In this document: positions 7,951 to 23,085 of the stretch, in pieces
How the letters are laid out: every line of letters begins with the position of its first letter
How positions within the stretch are numbered: position 1 is the stretch's first letter
Virus record (IMG/VR): IMGVR_UViG_3300034355_000065
Span: 1-23,868 of that record
Length of the DNA: 23,868 bases
Reading direction: 5' to 3' (one strand)
From: a virus
Position numbers and translations under genes: made by a program
The notes under the pieces: model-generated
The model's input: only the letters and a program-made list of their open reading frames with translations
What the model was told of the DNA's origin: nothing
Databases searched by the model: none

Positions 7951-10900
7951 TACTCTTCTCCTCTGGCTTTCGCCAATGCTTCTTGCATACGATCTCGCAG
8001 GTCGTCGAGCTCTCTGTCCAGTGCCTCGTAGTCGGGGTAGCCCTTGCGGTACTCCTCGCGCTTGGCCTTGGTCATTGCAGCCTTGTAGTCCTTCTTGATC
8101 TCTTTGAGCTCTTTGCTCTTGTAGAACGCAGCTTCGTCGACGTTGAACTGATACAGCCCAATGCCACCCAGCGTACGGGCCAAGAACATAGAGCTTTTCT
8201 CGATGCCTGTGGGGCCTTTGGCACCATCCTTCAGATCGCCTATTTGATCCCAGAACTTGGTTGTCACAACTGGCGGTGCCATTGTGTCATAGGAGAACTT
8301 GGCTGTCGTGACAAGTTTGTCCCACTCTGTGTCTGTGGGGGCGTGCATTGGCTTGCCTGTGAATGGGTCGTAGCCGTTCATGGCAGAGATCAGCGTGACA
8401 AGTGGGCCACCGGGCGTAGCGAAACCGGGCAACCACGACTGCCCTGCAAACGGAGACTCACCCGGCGCAGGCTGGAACAACGACAAGAACGGGATGTACT
8501 TGCCGACGTTGAGGTATGTCGGGTTCTGGTCATCGCCAACAAACGGAATCCGCATGTGCATGTATGGACCGAGGCCGAACAGCGAACGCTCACGCAGGTA
8601 GTCCGGGCCTTTTTTGCGCAGCTCATCGTCTTCTTCTCCGCCCAGCGCAGCCTGCATCAGCATGACCGATGCCATCATGTTGACAATGGCCCAAGGCTTG
8701 GTAACTGCGATGCGACCAAGCACCGGCATGATGGCGTATGACCACGATACGAACGGCAGGAATGTTTGACGGGCTGCGCGGATTGCACGTGCGTCGATGT
8801 CATAGTCCAAGAACATCTTGCGTGCGGCCAGACCAACTTCTTCAAGCTGTTTGGCGTCGAGTTGTTTGGAACCGTCGCGCAACTGCACATTGCCAGCTGT
8901 CTCCAAGAACGCAGCGAAGCGGAACACGTTATCTTCTGCTGCGTATATCTCTACAGCGTTGTCCTTCCAACCTGCCAACTTGGCTTTGGTCTGTTCAAAC
9001 GCTGCCATCGAGGTCATGCGCTTGATGTACGACTGATCGCTGGTGGGGGTGATGGACTCGGACAGGCGGTCGTAGACGCTGCCCTTGAGCTCAGAGTTTG
9101 TGAACTGACCAAGCACAGCACCGGAGTTAAAGAACGCCTGCATCAGTGCGCGATCGGCGTCGTTCATAGAGTCTGGGTTGCGCTCGAACTTGGCGTACAT
9201 GCCTGCAGCGCGTTTGAGCGTGCCGAGGCGGATGCCGTGCAGAATCAGCAGTGCGACGTTCGACAGCACGTTGGTGACGTGTGTGCCGGGGTTCAGGACA
9301 GTCTTAGACTGCTTGAAGAAGGCCATAAGTTCGTTGAACGACTTGAAGTTAACCGCTGGCGAACGATCGTGCATGTCGATCATGGCGTTCCACACGGGGC
9401 CGGGGATGATCTTCCCAGCAAGAGCGCCGTAGGTTGTACCTTGTGGCAACTGCACCCATGTGCCAGTGCGCTGTGTTTGCCAGCGCAGCGACTGCGATTT
9501 AGAAGCCTCGTCGGAAACTTGCAGCACGTTGTTGAGTTCGAGGTTACGATCGCCGAACACTTCGTTGATCTCGTCAACACTGTCGAACGCAACAGCTTCA
9601 GCCGTGGGCTTGCCGCTCTCACGGCCAATCGAAGCAAGGTTGCCGAAGTACGTTGTAGCAGCATGCGCGTGAGACAGTGCAGCCGTGGTGTTTACCAAAG
9701 CCAGTGCGAGGTCTTCGCTCTTCAGGTTTTTGAGCGCGTCACGGGTAGTGATGCTGGACGAGAACTCGAAGTTGCCCTTGTCGGTGTCGTACTTGGAAAA
9801 CTTCCAAACGCGCTTGGCGTCAACCGCTGTACCAGAAGGTGTCACGCCAGTCTTGTCGTACTGAGCCTTAGAAATAAACCCAGCAGGCAAACCCTTCTTG
9901 CCAAGTTTGTCTTCAAATATCTGGTACAGCGGCTGATCTTGATCGACAATGCCGTCTGTCATGTCGAGGAACTGCTTGAACTCATCAAGCGACTGGTGTG
10001 TCTGCTTCTTCGTGCCGATCATGCTGGCGATCTTGCCAGCGCTGAGCGTAGAGCCTGCGACCTGACTGATGCTGGTGGGGCTGATGATGTACTGCGTGAA
10101 CGGCATGCTCTCGAAAGCGCGGCGCTCCTTGGAGTTTGCAGGCAGGGTGCTGATGTACTGCTTCATCAAGCCTTTGAGGTTGTCGGCGATAGCCTTGAAC
10201 CCGGAAGCGTTCTGAATACCAGCAAACGCTTTGGTATTGCCATCCATGTAGTCCAAGAAGGGCTCACGCAGCTCAGGGCGGGCAGCGATGGTGGTTGCAA
10301 TCTTCTCCATCTGCAAGTGGCCAGTCTGGGCCAAAAACTTGTAGTTGTCGATCGCTGCCACGGTAGCAGGCGAATTGCTGAAGTTTGAGTTGAACTGCAT
10401 GATGACGCGCTCAAGCGTCGGCACTTCCTTACGGATGTAGTTCGCCAGCTTCGCACCGTTCTTTGCAATGCTTGCTGTGAGCGGCAGGTCTTTACCATTT
10501 ACGCGGCCAAGGCCAACAATCTCGAACACAAGCTGTGTAGGTGTCTTGAACTTACCGGGGCCATTGGCAAACGCGGTGGCGTCAGCAAAGCCAACCTGCT
10601 GTGCAGCAGCGTCGATCGTAGGCGCAGTCGTTGGGTCAGTAGCTTGGATAGCGGCTTCGAGCACACTACCTGTGGCTTTACCCTTCTTCTGCCCTTTTTG
10701 GCCAGCAGCCTCAAGCAGCTTGAACGTGTTTGCGATAACGTCAGCAGCCACGGAAGGCTTGACGCCGAGCATCTTCTGCACGGCTGTCAGGATAGACTGC
10801 CACACGTTGTTGGCTGCGTCAAAGAATGACTTCGGAGCTTCGGTGCTGTCCATTGCTTCCAGTGCGCGTCGGAAGTCGTTAAGGGTATTCCCATAGGACA

Positions 10901-17188: not shown

Positions 17189-18067
17189 TCAGCTCCCCAA
17201 CCCTTGGATAAGGGTCAATGTATCACCGTAATTGGTGGTAAGTTCCTCGTCAGGCTCAATCTCGCGGCCTGCTACAAGCCACAGCGCACCACCGACGACA
17301 GCAAAATTGCAGTTAGGCGTGGGCGAATGGTTGGAATACCTGCCAGCCAGAGACCGTTTGCCGTCTACAAGCGCGACGCAGATTTTCTCATCTGCGCTGA
17401 ACCCGCGCAAGGAAAACAAGCCTGATCCTTCAATAGCCGACTCGCGCACCTCAACGCCGTCAAGTGGAGTTCTGTCCAGCGTAGACTCGTCGACGGATAC
17501 GGTACGTACGGTCTCTTCGTCCAACCCAAACGCAGCAATGGTGTCTTTAAAGCTGGCGTGGGCGACAAGTTTCTCGTATTCAGCGAATGTGTTCACTGTG
17601 ATGGCATCAATGATCTGGTCAGGCTCAAGGCCCAAGTCAGGGTGCACATTGATCCAGATCGAATCTTCGTTGGCGTACGCTAACTTCTTCGTGCCAGCGG
17701 GGGACGAAAACATGGCCGGAGCCTTGATACGCTTAGGTCCGTCTGCCGTCATGAATGTGAGGTCGCCCTGCATGCAGATGTTCAAGTGCTCAGTCATGTG
17801 CAGCTTGCCCACCAGCAAAGTCCCCTTGGGGATAAACAGTTCGCGGGCGTAGACGCCGCCAGAGAATACGTTGCGCACGGGCGTGTCAACTTGTGGCTGC
17901 TGCAGCATAAGCGCCTGCAAGGCGTCGATCTTGTTGCGCAGCTTGGCCTCGCGGATGACCAGCTCTGGGCCGTTGATCGGCTCGAACAAGTCAATGGGGA
18001 ATCCTTCCGGCACCCCATCAGGGTAGCAGGAGTCCACTGCCGACTGCTCTACGAGTTCAAGTTCCAT
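17189..18067 (-). CDS. Cupin-like/SET-domain fusion, predicted protein-lysine methyltransferase
   Basis: A 292-residue protein with two parts. Residues about 69-143 look like a single cupin barrel: a G...H90-x3-H94...G101 first motif and a PAG turn at 123-125, with some usual metal ligands not evident. Residues about 204-282 carry a compact SET domain: GSGLF (214-218), the NHS-x-x-PNC block (246-253) that binds S-adenosylmethionine and shapes the knot, and EELTTNYG with the catalytic-type Y280. SET enzymes transfer methyl groups from S-adenosylmethionine to protein lysines. The ATG at 18067 is preferred over a TTG at 18124, which would overlap the previous gene; no strong Shine-Dalgarno is seen. 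Location among nozzle and ejection genes suggests a virion, chaperone-like or host target (inference). Confidence 0.78.
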   Translation of the reverse strand: MELELVEQSAVDSCYPDGVPEGFPIDLFEPINGPELVIREAKLRNKIDALQALMLQQPQVDTPVRNVFSGGVYARELFIPKGTLLVGKLHMTEHLNICMQGDLTFMTADGPKRIKAPAMFSSPAGTKKLAYANEDSIWINVHPDLGLEPDQIIDAITVNTFAEYEKLVAHASFKDTIAAFGLDEETVRTVSVDESTLDRTPLDGVEVRESAIEGSGLFSLRGFSADEKICVALVDGKRSLAGRYSNHSPTPNCNFAVVGGALWLVAGREIEPDEELTTNYGDTLTLIQGLGS

Positions 18068-18086
18068 GGTGCGTATTATGGCCGAT

Positions 18087-18281
18087 CTACTGCAATCTAT
18101 CCACAACGGCGTTGAGCTGGGCAATCACTTCGGCCAGCGTGGCGGTGGCAGGTAGCGGCTGAAAGCGGTTTACGTTTTTGGATTGAGCCGTGATGGCGTC
18201 CAAGTTCTGCTTGATAGACGACAGCGCCCGATCCAAGTCGGGCTTGCCGGTCATAACAGATGGGATAGCGGCTTTGGTCAT
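18087..18281 (-). CDS. Small helical protein of the tail operon, unknown function
   Basis: A 64-residue protein whose start overlaps the nozzle-protein stop as ATGA. After a short N-terminus comes a helix (about 14-32, LDRALSSIKQNLDAIT), a Pro-containing linker (LPATATL) and a second helix to the end. It lacks Cys and membrane segments. Similar small proteins sit beside tail genes in other environmental phages in my memory, without known function. A tail assembly or partner role for the adjacent cupin-SET protein is possible but unproven. Confidence 0.7.
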   Translation of the reverse strand: MTKAAIPSVMTGKPDLDRALSSIKQNLDAITAQSKNVNRFQPLPATATLAEVIAQLNAVVDRLQ

Positions 18282-20296
18282 CAGGATGCCTGCGCAAGTT
18301 CTGTAATAGACGTTGCAACAGCAACGGAGTACGTCTTGACGGACGCGTTCAGGCCCACGTTATAGACCTCACTCAGATACCCTGAAGGCAGTCGGAACGG
18401 CTTAGACGAGGTCACGTTCTTTGTGAACACAGGGGTGTTGTTGGAATACAACGTGAACTGGACGCGCTTGGCGGTGTTGAGTTCCACCGGCACAATGTTA
18501 CTGCCGTTGATCTCTAGGCTAAGCAGTTCTGCTCCATTTAAGTGGCCAGCGACTGCATCAGCACCAAGCGCAATGAGCGCTTCATTCGCGGTAATTTGGC
18601 TTGTGTCCACCGGTACTGCACTACCAAAATCGGCGTGTACCTGAGCAACAGACATGTTGACAGGTGCTGGCAGCTGCATGGTGCTACTTAGCCAATCGCT
18701 TTCGTATGCGCGTCCAGCATTGACATCCCACTCGTACAGTATCTCACCTTTGGCGACATACAACTTACCATCATATTCGTTGCGGTACAGTGCATTGAGA
18801 GACTCTTCAACCTCTACAACGCTATCCGGCTCGCCGAGGTCAAGGACCAGCGTCCTGCTGTTGGTACCTGTTGTGTATGTGGCGAAATACTGCCCGTCGT
18901 GGAACGCTGCGGTGAAGGATGCAGGGTTAAGCTGCGACCACTCTTCTTCGCGGTACAACTTGCTGGTGACGCGGTTAACAGCGCCGGGGGACACAGCCCA
19001 AAGCCCGTCGAAACTAGGGTAGATAGCCTCGCCGCCGAGATCAACTACGCCGCGAGCAGACACACAGGGGGCGTATGTCTCCAGAGTCGTGGCTGACATG
19101 GCTTCTGGATCGGAGCCAGTGAACAGGATAGGGAACGTCTGCGTCAGGACAATGACCGAGTTGCTTGCAGCGACAGCAGCAACGCCAACGCCAGAGAACG
19201 CGTAGCGGTTGCGGATAGGCCACGAGTACGGCATGTACGGGTCACTGAAACACAGCTCGTTACCGGCAAGGCCAGCCAAACAGCCGTTGGGTAGGCTGAC
19301 CAGACTCACTAGGTTTTTTGGCGGGGTAGACGAGTCAGCGGTTGGCAGTATTTCGCCAAGGTCCGCAGCAACCACGCTATCTGCAAATGATGTTGCGCTT
19401 GTGTTTGTCTCACCCACGAACAGAAAATCACCGGACGTGCCGACTGTGCGATACACGCGGTACTTGTAGTTTGCAGTGTCGTATGTGGCCACACGAGCCA
19501 CAGTACCGCCGCTTGTGTATGTCTGCGCCGTAGTGAGCGCGACGCTCAGTTTGTTGGCTGCAGGCTCAACACTTACGATCCTGAAAGTCCCATTAAGGGA
19601 GGTCATGCCTACGACACCAGAAATCGTGATCTGCTCGTACTGCTCAAAGGTAAACCCTGTGGCTGTGATGGTCACAGTGACAATGCCCGGAGATGTCGTG
19701 GCCGCAGTGCTAACAGAGTACGAGTTGGCTGGCTTAGCTGGCAGTGTTGCAATTGTCCATGTGCCGTCTGCATAGCCAGTCACACTGTCTGACGGGGGGC
19801 TGGGGGGTGACTCTTGCCCAAAGTTGTCTACAAACGTAACCGCGTAGGAACGCGTCTCTGTACTACCGGAGCCGCCAGCAACTGTGGGGTTGCTTGGCGC
19901 AGCTACAGGTGGACGAATGCCGAGAGCCAAAAAAGCCGTAGGGTATGGAACGCTTTGAACCGCCAAAGCGTAAGTCGACATCCTAGGTGAAAAAGATTCG
20001 CTGGCGAAGAAGAAACGGCCATACACATCGTTGGCATTCGGTGATGGCGCTACGCTAACGACTTCTGGCCACGTGAGCCAGTTATCCAAGTAGCCGCCAT
20101 TGATAAATGCGCGGTAGCGATAGACCGTGCCGATGCTTAAATTAGCGTCGTAGACCTGCCCAAGACCAGCAAGTGGGTCGAGTCGCCCGGATGTGATCTT
20201 GCAGTTCAGCGCCCGCACGGCTTGGTTGGGTTGCAGTAGGCGATCGCTCACCCGAGGAATTTGACCTCTGAATGCTTTGATGTTTACTACTGTCAT
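18281..20296 (-). CDS. Tail nozzle / tubular protein B, T7 gp12-like
   Basis: A 671-residue beta-rich protein with the opening typical of phage nozzle proteins (AFRGQIPRVSDRLLQPNQA, with KITSGRLDPLAG shortly after). A fibronectin-like domain around 148-295 (YAVTFVDNFGQESPPS ... YKYRVYRT ... FLFVGE) appears to be interrupted by a bead at about 193-269 that resembles FCCH-type virion domains (ISGVVGMTSLNGTF). Propeller-like strands follow to about 520, then a C-terminal domain. T7 gp12 forms the lower tail and fibre attachment site. The ATG at 20296 is chosen because GGAG lies eight bases upstream and the conserved N-terminus starts there; an upstream in-frame start at 20380 would run into the previous gene. 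Its stop overlaps the next start. Confidence 0.82.
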   Translation of the reverse strand: MTVVNIKAFRGQIPRVSDRLLQPNQAVRALNCKITSGRLDPLAGLGQVYDANLSIGTVYRYRAFINGGYLDNWLTWPEVVSVAPSPNANDVYGRFFFASESFSPRMSTYALAVQSVPYPTAFLALGIRPPVAAPSNPTVAGGSGSTETRSYAVTFVDNFGQESPPSPPSDSVTGYADGTWTIATLPAKPANSYSVSTAATTSPGIVTVTITATGFTFEQYEQITISGVVGMTSLNGTFRIVSVEPAANKLSVALTTAQTYTSGGTVARVATYDTANYKYRVYRTVGTSGDFLFVGETNTSATSFADSVVAADLGEILPTADSSTPPKNLVSLVSLPNGCLAGLAGNELCFSDPYMPYSWPIRNRYAFSGVGVAAVAASNSVIVLTQTFPILFTGSDPEAMSATTLETYAPCVSARGVVDLGGEAIYPSFDGLWAVSPGAVNRVTSKLYREEEWSQLNPASFTAAFHDGQYFATYTTGTNSRTLVLDLGEPDSVVEVEESLNALYRNEYDGKLYVAKGEILYEWDVNAGRAYESDWLSSTMQLPAPVNMSVAQVHADFGSAVPVDTSQITANEALIALGADAVAGHLNGAELLSLEINGSNIVPVELNTAKRVQFTLYSNNTPVFTKNVTSSKPFRLPSGYLSEVYNVGLNASVKTYSVAVATSITELAQAS

Positions 20297-20312: not shown

Positions 20313-20840
20313 CTATGAAACTGGAATGCCGCTGCTGACTCGCTCTTGGCACTTGCCACATGACCCGCACGGGACGACATGGATGCAGGAGTGAACCAGC
20401 GGACGGAGTTCTTGTGGGATCACTTCCCAGCTTTCGGCTTTGGAAAGGTGACTCAATGGAGAAAGCAGGGGCACGCCCGGGTGCGCCACCTTCCACGATT
20501 CAACGATCCGATCAAACTCGACCGCCATGTGTGGCTTGATGTCGTCCTTATTGCGACCCCACCAAACCTCCTTGGTATTCGTGAAGGTTGAAACCCATAA
20601 CGAGGCGATTCTCGAAAGCGCCCACATTTGCACTGGTCTGATTCCCGCAGGCAGCTTGAACGAGGCAATCTCCACCTTCATGCCGTAGTGAGCGGCCAGC
20701 TTCAATGCTTTCTCGCGCACGAAGAAAACAACATCTGGCCCGTGAAACGGCTCAACCATCAGCAGGGTGTCCCCCTTGTTGGCAAGCGGCAGGAGTGCGG
20801 CACTTTCCACGCCGCCGCTGAACAGAATGATTCTGGTCAT
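20313..20840 (-). CDS. QueC-like ATP pyrophosphatase (7-cyano-7-deazaguanine synthase family)
   Basis: A 175-residue protein, shorter than usual QueC (about 220-230). The N-terminal PP-loop reads SGGVES (8-13) where family members have SGGxDS, so Asp is replaced by Glu. GRNKDD (95-100) and SPLSHLSKAE (127-136) match QueC-type blocks. The C-terminus has C152, C158, C161 and C164, matching the zinc-binding quartet. QueC converts CDG to preQ0, a precursor of queuosine and of 7-deazaguanine DNA modifications used by some phages against restriction. No QueD, QueE, FolE or DNA transglycosylase gene is in the window, so preQ0 synthesis would need the host or distant genes. The start overlaps the DUF4376 stop as ATGA. 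Another adenylating or amidating reaction is possible. Confidence 0.75.
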   Translation of the reverse strand: MTRIILFSGGVESAALLPLANKGDTLLMVEPFHGPDVVFFVREKALKLAAHYGMKVEIASFKLPAGIRPVQMWALSRIASLWVSTFTNTKEVWWGRNKDDIKPHMAVEFDRIVESWKVAHPGVPLLSPLSHLSKAESWEVIPQELRPLVHSCIHVVPCGSCGKCQERVSSGIPVS

Positions 20841-21451
20841 TGCGGAAGAATAATGTTGCCCACTTCTTCAATGGTCGTCGCGCCAGAAACCAACTGGCTG
20901 TACGTCTTTTCCATCTGGTAGCAGGCCTGCACATGATCGAAGACTGCCCTTGACATGGCAGTGAGCATCTCGACAGTGAGCGTGATCCACTGACCATCTG
21001 CTGCCTTCCAATCCAAGGTTGCGGAGAAGTTGTCCTTCATCCCCACAAGTGCGCCGGTAATCTTCTGTTGCGACTCTCGATCTGTTGCGATGGTCACACC
21101 CTCAAAAGTCACGCCACCGATCTCTCGGGCATAGCGCCACGCCATGATCTCGCGCAACTTCTGGGCACGCACGCTTTCAAGAGTGACCGGCTCCTCAACC
21201 GGCACCGATGGCGCGCTCCCTTGAACCCCGCCGCCTTTATGGCCTACTACCGGAGGCACGACCACCATGTCCTTCTCCAGCCAAATCCAAACAGGCGCAA
21301 ACTGCGAAACCACATCGTCAAGACTCTCGCCTTGATACGGAAGCCGCGCCCCAACGTGCAAGGGCGTTCTGCCCTCCGATGTGTAAACGATCTCCATGCA
21401 ACGATTTGGCTCGTCTACATTGACGATCTCGTAACTGTATTCAATGCTCAT
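20837..21451 (-). CDS. DUF4376-domain protein, probable tail-fibre assembly protein
   Basis: A 204-residue protein. The N-terminal 70 residues are beta-rich, followed by a Gly/Pro linker. The C-terminal part, about 94-185, matches the DUF4376 style: KLREIMAWRYARE, GVTFEGVTIATDRESQQKI, a W-containing turn and a helix ending HVQACY. In phages this domain lies directly downstream of tail fibre genes and is thought to act in fibre assembly, as here after the glycine-rich fibre. The ATG at 21451 is chosen over an upstream in-frame start (21487): AGGAG lies about eight bases before it, and it overlaps the fibre stop as ATGA. Confidence 0.8.
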   Translation of the reverse strand: MSIEYSYEIVNVDEPNRCMEIVYTSEGRTPLHVGARLPYQGESLDDVVSQFAPVWIWLEKDMVVVPPVVGHKGGGVQGSAPSVPVEEPVTLESVRAQKLREIMAWRYAREIGGVTFEGVTIATDRESQQKITGALVGMKDNFSATLDWKAADGQWITLTVEMLTAMSRAVFDHVQACYQMEKTYSQLVSGATTIEEVGNIILPQ

Positions 21452-22386
21452 GTGAGTGCTCCTAAACGGGTGCCTGTTGCAGCCCAAGTAATGTTTGAAT
21501 TTCCGCTGACGGCATAGCCAGAGCCGCCGCCACCGCCGCTGGAAGCGCCGCCTGCACCACCGGCAGCTCCAGATGAGCCCCAGCCACCGCCTGCGCCGCC
21601 CAAACCTGCGCCGCCAGAGCGGGTGCCGCCAGCGCCATTGGTTGACACGGTGCCGGTGCCACCTGCGCCGCCATTGACGATGCTTCCGTTGGAACCGGAT
21701 GCGGTGCCACCAGAGCCGCCCGAAGAGTTCGCAGCATTGGAAGATCGACCACCGCCACCGCCACCGCCACCGTATGCGTTTGTATAGTTAGAGTCGCCAA
21801 ACGAAATGGATTCGAAGTAACCGCCACCACCTCCGCCGCCACCGCCACCGCCAGCAATGGTTCCGTTGTTGGTAATTGCGGTAGCAACGGATACGGATAA
21901 CGCGCCGCCGCCTGCGGAGCCAGCAACGCCGGGAGACGCACTGCCCGGATAGTATGAATCTGCCACCACGGCAGGGGTGGATGCTGCCCCGCCTGCGCCA
22001 CCATTGCCGCCTCTACCAACGATGAAGCCGTTGTTGATAAGCTGAACACCACCGGGGAATGAGCCATTGATCGTCAATGCGGGTGTGCCCGTGGCGTTGC
22101 TGCTGACGTAGATGCCTGAGTTGATCGTGGCAACCACTTTGGTTGACTGATTCCAGCCAGCGTTGACCGCCAGCGTCCGCAAGTTAGCGTTGGTCTGGTT
22201 GCTCGCAATCGTGAATGCGAACTGGTTGGCCTTGCCGTAGAAGTTGCTCATCGAGATTGCGCCCGAAGCAACACCGGCCAGATTTCGATAAGAAGTTTGA
22301 CCCAAAGAGGCTTGCGTTGTTCCAGAAACACCCAACTCCACGTTGATGTTGTTGAACGAAATTGCACCTGATGCTGGTAGCGTCAT
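21448..22386 (-). CDS. Glycine-rich tail fibre / adhesin protein
   Basis: A 312-residue protein. The N-terminal part (about 1-52) has the repeat-like phage fibre motif ASGAISFNNIN...SGAISMSNFYGK. A beta-rich middle (55-115) follows. From about 120 to 292 the chain is extremely Gly-rich, with runs of eight or more Gly broken by Ala, Ser and Asn and by short aromatic-containing loops. Such composition is seen in the polyglycine-II sandwich of T-even-like gp38 adhesins, where loops at the tip bind receptors. It lies directly before a DUF4376 assembly protein and after another fibre gene. Receptor binding is inferred; no enzymatic motif is present. Confidence 0.75.
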   Translation of the reverse strand: MTLPASGAISFNNINVELGVSGTTQASLGQTSYRNLAGVASGAISMSNFYGKANQFAFTIASNQTNANLRTLAVNAGWNQSTKVVATINSGIYVSSNATGTPALTINGSFPGGVQLINNGFIVGRGGNGGAGGAASTPAVVADSYYPGSASPGVAGSAGGGALSVSVATAITNNGTIAGGGGGGGGGGGYFESISFGDSNYTNAYGGGGGGGGRSSNAANSSGGSGGTASGSNGSIVNGGAGGTGTVSTNGAGGTRSGGAGLGGAGGGWGSSGAAGGAGGASSGGGGGSGYAVSGNSNITWAATGTRLGALT

Positions 22387-22395
22387 GTGATCTCC

Positions 22396-23085
22396 TTACG
22401 GTGTGCTGTAGGCTGTGATGTCAGCCAAGGCCACAAAATTGCCACTGGAATCCAACGAAGCGATCTTAGTTGTACCATACTTAAAATACAGTTTACCGCT
22501 CTCTTGCACGACTGAAAAGTTTGCAGTTGCCAAAGAACCTGCGCTGCCCGAGGCGTTGCCTGTGACGTTGCCTGTGACGTTGCCTGTGACGTTGCCTGTG
22601 ACATTACCTGTGACATTACCTGTGACATTACCTGTGACGTTTCCAGTGACATCGCCTGTTAAATCACCAGTGACATCGCCAATGACATCACCTGTTATAG
22701 CTTGTGAGAACGTATTGGTTCCGGTAAAGGTGTTGTTGCTCGCGATCAAACCAACAGAAGTCTCAACATCCAAAGCTGTAAGGCGCAATCCGACAACCGT
22801 ACCAGTGCTGAACGCTTTAGCCGTAGTACCTTCCTGAGCCCGCAAGACGTTAGATAAAATACCGGAGCCAGCTGTGCGCGTGCGGACGTATATGATCTCC
22901 ACTGCGCCCGTGGAGTCCTGAAGCGTGACCTTGAACCAGTTGGTTGCTGCGGGTACTGTCCCAGTACCAGTGTTGGCCGTAGGGAACAAATCTGCCTTGG
23001 ACGACTCAACCACCATGGAGGTAGCAGTATCCGTAATACTGGCTGTGAGCAGCGCTCTGGCGTTGTTCGTAAAAAGTTGAGGCAT
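22396..23085 (-). CDS. Tail fibre-like protein with GNVT tetrapeptide repeats
   Basis: A 229-residue protein. The N-terminal domain (about 1-105) starts with FTNNARALLTASITDTATSM, a recurrent opening of phage tail and fibre proteins, and is beta-rich. After a short linker come about twelve tetrapeptide units (G-D/N-V-T) at roughly 131-178, predicted to form an extended rod. The C-terminus (KLYFKYGTTKIASLDSSGNF) resembles a short fibre-end domain. GGAG at 23095-23092 precedes the ATG with six bases spacing, and a probable sigma70 promoter sits in the 59-base gap to the endolysin. It probably links the tail to the glycine-rich fibre that follows (inference). Confidence 0.75.
   Translation of the reverse strand: MPQLFTNNARALLTASITDTATSMVVESSKADLFPTANTGTGTVPAATNWFKVTLQDSTGAVEIIYVRTRTAGSGILSNVLRAQEGTTAKAFSTGTVVGLRLTALDVETSVGLIASNNTFTGTNTFSQAITGDVIGDVTGDLTGDVTGNVTGNVTGNVTGNVTGNVTGNVTGNVTGNASGSAGSLATANFSVVQESGKLYFKYGTTKIASLDSSGNFVALADITAYSTP
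22561..22692 (-). repeat. 12-bp tandem repeat array, about 11 units
   Basis: Consecutive 12-mers on the + strand: three copies of TGTGACGTTGCC, three of TGTGACATTACC, one TGTGACGTTTCC, then four increasingly diverged units. Each unit encodes G-N-V-T or G-D-V-T in the tail-fibre gene. The array is homogeneous at the gene's 3' side and degenerate at the 5' side. Confidence 0.95.

Follow-up and report, generated by a model that had tools for sequence, protein, structure and literature searches.

A small QueC-like protein (P0001, 175 aa) is encoded at 20313..20840 (-) of the window (the whole 23,868-nt stretch analysed here, a podovirus fragment of 23.9 kb from IMG/VR), as the last gene of an adhesin–chaperone cassette. 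Our preferred but tentative reading is that P0001 is a stand-alone minimal N-type ATP pyrophosphatase of about the size of Cap9, which does not make preQ0, travels in a mobile receptor-binding cassette and would act as a carboxylate-activating ligase that modifies the fibre. So far three independent homologs are known, that of the window included.

A divergent member of the QueC family

The gene starts with ATG and its product is matched to the QueC family by sequence profiles and by Foldseek. P0001 scores 21.5 bits against PF06508, just below the 22-bit gathering cut-off; its homologs score above it, P0006 with 25.4 bits and P0008 with 32.5. It also matches phrog_1550 (E=3e-11) and the PADLOC QueC profile (E=3e-5, residues 4-167). 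The TIGR00364 score, 18.7 bits, does not reach the equivalog cut-off of 150.3, and the PADLOC QatC profile matches neither P0001 nor P0006. Judged by these sequence comparisons the kinship with QueC is weak, and real: the PF06508, phrog_1550 and PADLOC QueC profiles, together with the fold match given below, bear out the QueC-family membership proposed in the initial annotation. That annotation had also described a short protein with Glu in place of the PP-loop Asp, and we confirm both points: P0001 is ∼50 residues below canonical QueC in length, and SGGVES is at residues 8-13 (20802..20819 (-)), invariant across three homologs. The other motifs are GRNKDD (residues 95-100; 20541..20558 (-)), the GxNxxD core of which is common to all three homologs, HLSKAE (residues 131-136; 20433..20450 (-)), which includes the lysine conserved in the QueC family, and a probable zinc site, C-x5-C-x2-C-x2-C (residues 152-164; 20349..20387 (-)).

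The AF2 model built from the three-homolog alignment (pLDDT 78.4, pTM 0.77) has a predicted QueC/Cap9-type fold with the core motifs intact. Only two PDB entries are matched by Foldseek at E <= 0.001: the top match is 9NTO, Cap9-CdnD carrying the NDG modification (E 1.8e-6, TM 0.65/0.63), and the second is Bacillus subtilis QueC (3BL5; E 2e-5, TM 0.63/0.58). Vibrio phage 1.169.O contributes a named top match among viral models, its orphan QueC-like protein, and the profile comparison with canonical QueC covers residues 1-169. A first AF2 model, from an alignment that contained the distant P0007, was poor (pLDDT 47.8) and its fold matches were set aside; PDB sequence searches gave nothing useful.

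No close relatives were found by direct tblastn of phages and plasmids, by single-sequence scans of viral contigs or by two scans of genome contigs; the homologs surfaced only via a zinc-motif DNA pattern, an alignment scan and a chaperone scan. The DNA pattern found P0006 (82% identity to P0001) on the 17.7-kb contig L135, the alignment scan found the 56,038-bp contig L152, which carries the same gene as L135, and the scan with the DUF4376 chaperone found P0008 (38% identity to P0001) on contig L178, an independent locus. There are thus three independent loci on four contigs (the window, L135, L152 and L178). A match in Yersinia YeP5 is a mere tail-fibre assembly protein and was dismissed as chance. 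SGGVES, GxNxxD, HLSKAE and the four cysteines are kept in all three homologs, and because two other lineages keep SGGVES it is not a sequencing error.

Between the window and L135, dN/dS is 0.083 for the QueC-like gene, 0.123 for the adhesin gene and 0.126 for the chaperone gene (the ratios are approximate, as dS is ∼1.5, near saturation). These values indicate strong purifying selection on the QueC-like gene; with dN/dS of ∼0.08 against an 82%-identical homolog, the ORF at 20313-20840 is not a chance one.

Missing determinants of preQ0 synthesis

In alignments with Escherichia coli and HCTV-1 QueC, the YPDC loop that follows G-x-x-x-x-D is either deleted from P0001 or replaced. The arginine of VPxRN is without a counterpart conserved among the three homologs; the tyrosine and glutamine of YxQ are gone, and with them the equivalent of YxQxHxxE (in the alignments with both QueC proteins and among the homologs); and the tyrosine beside the first zinc cysteine is replaced by Ile or Gln. 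In E. coli QueC, Y35, R99, Y131 and Y189 are reported to be essential (PMC13329287), and the Tyr/Asp pair by which Cap9 recognises CDG is matched in QueC (PMC13279940). As this pair and the essential QueC residues are missing, CDG-to-preQ0 chemistry is unlikely. QatC, which is without the same motifs, fails to restore queuosine (PMC13329287). The PP-loop Asp helps ATP phosphate binding (PMC13279940); ATP chemistry is still plausible for the QueC-like protein, since Glu retains the carboxylate.

The initial annotation placed the gene apart from queD, queE and folE, and this extends to its relatives: PTPS (QueD), radical SAM (QueE) and GTP cyclohydrolase (FolE) have no match in the window, the 17.7-kb L135 or the 56-kb L152, an absence that is limited by the possible incompleteness of these three records. 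HCTV-1 served as the positive control and was found for QueD, QueE and FolE, with a radical SAM match below the family cut-off. TGT (PF01702) has no match in the three records either, a weak negative given that the model is insensitive to phage DpdA and also missed HCTV-1. Synthesis of preQ0 is unlikely because the essential residues (equivalents of Y35, R99, Y131 and Y189) are absent and no queD, queE, folE or tgt is found in the 56-kb relative, which speaks against the earlier suggestion that the protein supplies preQ0 for DNA modification. The other suggestion, a divergent clade with another substrate, fares better: P0001 and its homologs make up a divergent clade of the QueC superfamily whose substrate is probably different. 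A tree of nine sequences did not resolve the placement of the QueC-like protein.

The adhesin-chaperone cassette and its exchange

The cassette opens with a glycine-rich GP38-like tail adhesin of 312 aa (21448..22386 (-)), continues with a DUF4376 tail-fibre chaperone/assembly protein (20837..21451 (-); the start at 21451 is better supported than 21487) and ends with the QueC-like gene; a tail fibre protein is encoded upstream of it (22396..23085 (-)). Two ATGA overlaps join the three genes, one between the adhesin stop and the chaperone start (21448..21451 (-)) and one between the chaperone stop and the QueC-like start (20837..20840 (-)). Gene order and both junctions are the same in the three backgrounds. 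Among independent loci, the QueC-like gene is present in 3/8 that encode the DUF4376 C-terminal domain and in 0/31 that lack it (Fisher p=0.006). The question raised earlier, whether the SGGVES form is always linked to tail genes, can be answered for every homolog found: it is, in 3/3 independent loci and 4/4 contigs. Adhesins in these loci start with Met-Thr or Met-Pro and chaperones with Met-Ser, and no neighbour starts with Met-Gly. We found no adhesin residue pattern that tracks with the QueC-like gene.

Translational coupling had been claimed to both neighbours; it holds for the chaperone, through the ATGA overlap, but not for the tail nozzle/internal virion protein (phrog_511; 18281..20296 (-)), which adjoins the cassette and is not part of it. 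For the nozzle the most likely start is 20296, which is 16 nt past the stop codon of the QueC-like gene and has its own GGAG, and homology to other phages starts precisely at this position. The QueC-like gene is followed by a small gene and lysis genes in L135 and L152 (the nozzle is several kb off) and by other genes, not the nozzle, in L178. Linkage to the nozzle was rejected on the basis of these different downstream genes, and the adjacency in the window is incidental.

None of the nozzle-related viral contigs (0/23) has a QueC-like gene. In L006, with a nozzle 98% identical to that of the window, homology ends exactly at the cassette boundary. L178 and L186 share ∼85%-identical flanks around a different adhesin-chaperone-third-gene block, the third gene being QueC-like in L178 and a cupin in L186. 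Cupins are found in the slot region of 30/75 loci, never alongside the QueC-like gene, and 2OG-Fe(II) oxygenases hold the third slot in other loci. These comparisons show that phages swap the adhesin-chaperone-third-gene cassette; Alteromonas phages offer an earlier example of a shared module of fibre and chaperone that moves horizontally (PMC10579305). The cupins and oxygenases of the third slot suggest a class of fibre-linked enzymes.

The post-chaperone slot often encodes a small cupin-like protein or a 2OG-Fe(II) oxygenase (e.g. L006 7133-7411, L186 4163-4516, L022 4575-5219 and L207 4450-4998).

Possible functions of the QueC-like protein

In the ligase model the PP-loop, with Glu for Asp, would use ATP to adenylate a carboxylate, and the activated group would be passed to an amine or a comparable acceptor that belongs to the adhesin or chaperone or is required by one of them. 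This transfer would occur while the virion is assembled and leave the fibre with a covalent modification. Catalytic activity and its chemistry are inferred, as is the target, for which gene order, coupling and joint transfer make the adhesin or its chaperone the likeliest candidates. Cap9, and probably QatC too, act on partner proteins (PMC13279940, PMC13329287). Modification of an N-terminal glycine of the neighbours, as by Cap9, was rejected since none of them starts with Met-Gly. Against modification of the adhesin, the fibre linkage could reflect modular exchange alone, and the PP-loop Glu could have reduced or abolished ATPase chemistry. More doubtful is the fuller version of this model, in which a phage QueC-family ligase modifies its own adhesin or chaperone and is one of a set of interchangeable cassette enzymes (QueC-like, cupin, 2OG oxygenase).

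A late accessory gene whose product modifies a small molecule of host or phage, or a surface glycan (e.g. by carboxylate amidation), and thereby affects receptor display or superinfection, would account for the fibre linkage if both were matched to one host surface. Swapping of the cassette as a unit, with the third gene varying along, fits this explanation, as do the WbpG-type sugar amidotransferases in another PF06508 branch (PMC13329287). It is nevertheless rather unlikely: the cassette shows no partner gene of the glutaminase, sugar-nucleotide or membrane type, and the zinc motif and predicted fold are QueC/Cap9-like, not WbpG-like. We give slightly less weight to a hitch-hiking gene of unrelated function (e.g. 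acting on tRNA or a host protein) at a hot spot of accessory-gene insertion. The slot is indeed hypervariable, with no QueC-like gene in the nozzle-sharing relatives, but the two ATGA junctions, both conserved, and the tie to the long DUF4376 chaperone speak against this.

Retention of the zinc cysteines, the PP-loop Ser/Gly, GxNxxD and KAE at 38% identity argues for chemistry, and so against a QueC-like protein of little or no catalytic activity that would, as decoy or binder, block the defence proteins Cap9 or QatC or the substrates of either; the gene is also in a late virion operon, not among early genes. We regard such a decoy as improbable, even though the closest solved fold is that of Cap9 complexed with its substrate, the PP-loop Asp has become Glu and the length is near that of Cap9 (175 versus ∼185 aa; PMC13329287). 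A true QueC, turning CDG of the host into preQ0 or ADG for the modification of DNA or tRNA, is very improbable: similarity to PF06508/TIGR00364 and a possible supply of CDG from host bacteria are outweighed by a TIGR00364 score far from its cut-off (18.7 versus 150.3), by the missing equivalents of YPDC, YxQxHxxE, VPxRN and Y189, by the lack of queD, queE, folE and tgt family matches in the 56-kb relative, and by the case of QatC, which has likewise lost the motifs and does not restore queuosine (PMC13329287).

The QueC-family proteins Cap9 and QatC are shown or proposed to put nucleobase-like groups on proteins in anti-phage defence (PMC13279940, PMC13329287). The presence in adhesin cassettes of a Cap9-sized relative, which has a PP-loop specific to its clade and is devoid of the CDG-recognition residues, suggests that the QueC scaffold also serves phages, perhaps acting on the proteins with which they recognise hosts. 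If true, a ligase acting on the phage's own adhesin or chaperone would be a new, undescribed layer of virion protein modification, for which the cassette, with three genes and two conserved translational couplings, is a small test system. A phage 'QueC' annotation should not always be read as DNA modification.

Other features of the window

The tail-fibre-like protein phrog_12032 (17189-18124 (-)), ∼98% conserved in L007, L009 and L018, has a C-terminus that matches the SET domain (PF00856; E 1.8e-9, above the cut-off), a putative protein methyltransferase domain within the virion operon. A 12/36-bp tandem repeat at 22554-22695, in the tail fibre gene, encodes a GDVTGNVTGN-type repeat and is a candidate for length variation. 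The Rfam L19-Flavobacteria ribosomal leader matches at 9350-9378 (+) (31.8 bits versus a 31.5-bit cut-off, E 0.014); the match is antisense within a 2166-aa ORF and is probably due to chance.

Comparison with known systems

P0001 shares with canonical QueC the superfamily, a Rossmann-type PP-loop fold, the zinc cysteines and the conserved Lys. All four cysteines are kept, spaced C-x5-C-x2-C-x2-C rather than C(x)8CxxCxxC. It differs from canonical QueC in being shorter by ∼50 residues, in SGGVES instead of SGGxDS, in lacking the four essential residues and the pathway genes, and in falling far under the TIGR00364 cut-off.

Cap9, the type IV CBASS protein deazaguanylase, has the minimal QueC fold, is the best PDB structural match of the predicted fold and has a PP-loop and a C-terminal CxxCxxC zinc site; it is ∼185 aa long (PMC13329287) compared with 175 aa here. 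Unlike Cap9, P0001 has SGGVES for SGGxDS and is without the Tyr/Asp of YxDC and the RN motif; its gene sits in a phage adhesin cassette with no adjacent CD-NTase gene, and its neighbours (adhesin, chaperone and nozzle) have no N-terminal Gly. QatC of the qatABCD defence system resembles P0001 in its QueC core, in the loss of the CDG-recognition Tyr/Asp and in a proposed protein substrate; it differs in its larger size (∼400 aa, extended at both the N- and the C-terminus) and in keeping SGGxDS, and no qatA, qatB or qatD is near P0001.

QueC-like genes are also found in virion operons of unrelated phages, a pattern for which we make no statistical claim. Mycobacterium phage Muddy gp16 (L226 10216-10767), an orphan QueC-like PP-loop protein annotated as hypothetical, is flanked by the major tail protein and a tail assembly chaperone. 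The gene of Vibrio phage 1.169.O (L003 4626-5261) is flanked by a DUF1983 gene and a portal-adjacent gene, that of Vibrio phage VCPH (L029 3992-4633) has tail genes on both sides, and an orphan gene on contig G021 (L162 5462-6100) follows the major head protein, of family phrog_247. A counter-example is ECML-4, in which the QueC-like gene is away from tail genes. The SPN3US-like jumbo phages encode phrog_8825 (∼340 aa; L157 4001-5008 in SPN3US, L005 3506-4540 in Caitlin) near the head maturation protease; the Caitlin protein has a PP-loop-like TGGLDS start and no Pfam match.

Singleton phage QueC-like proteins (ECML-4, Muddy, SP-15 and SFP10) have been suggested to belong to another N-type ATP pyrophosphatase subfamily (PMC6884629; Hutinet et al. 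2019). They are QueC-like by profile and their pathway genes are not encoded, and P0001, a QueC-like PP-loop protein without the preQ0 pathway, is comparable to these orphan phage N-type ATP pyrophosphatases (the concept is that of PMC6884629). The two whose PP-loop was checked (ECML-4 and Muddy) have SGGVDS or SGGIDS, versus SGGVES here, and none of the singleton genes checked is within an adhesin-chaperone cassette. The SGGVES cassette protein is a variant of the orphan phage QueC-like proteins known since 2019.
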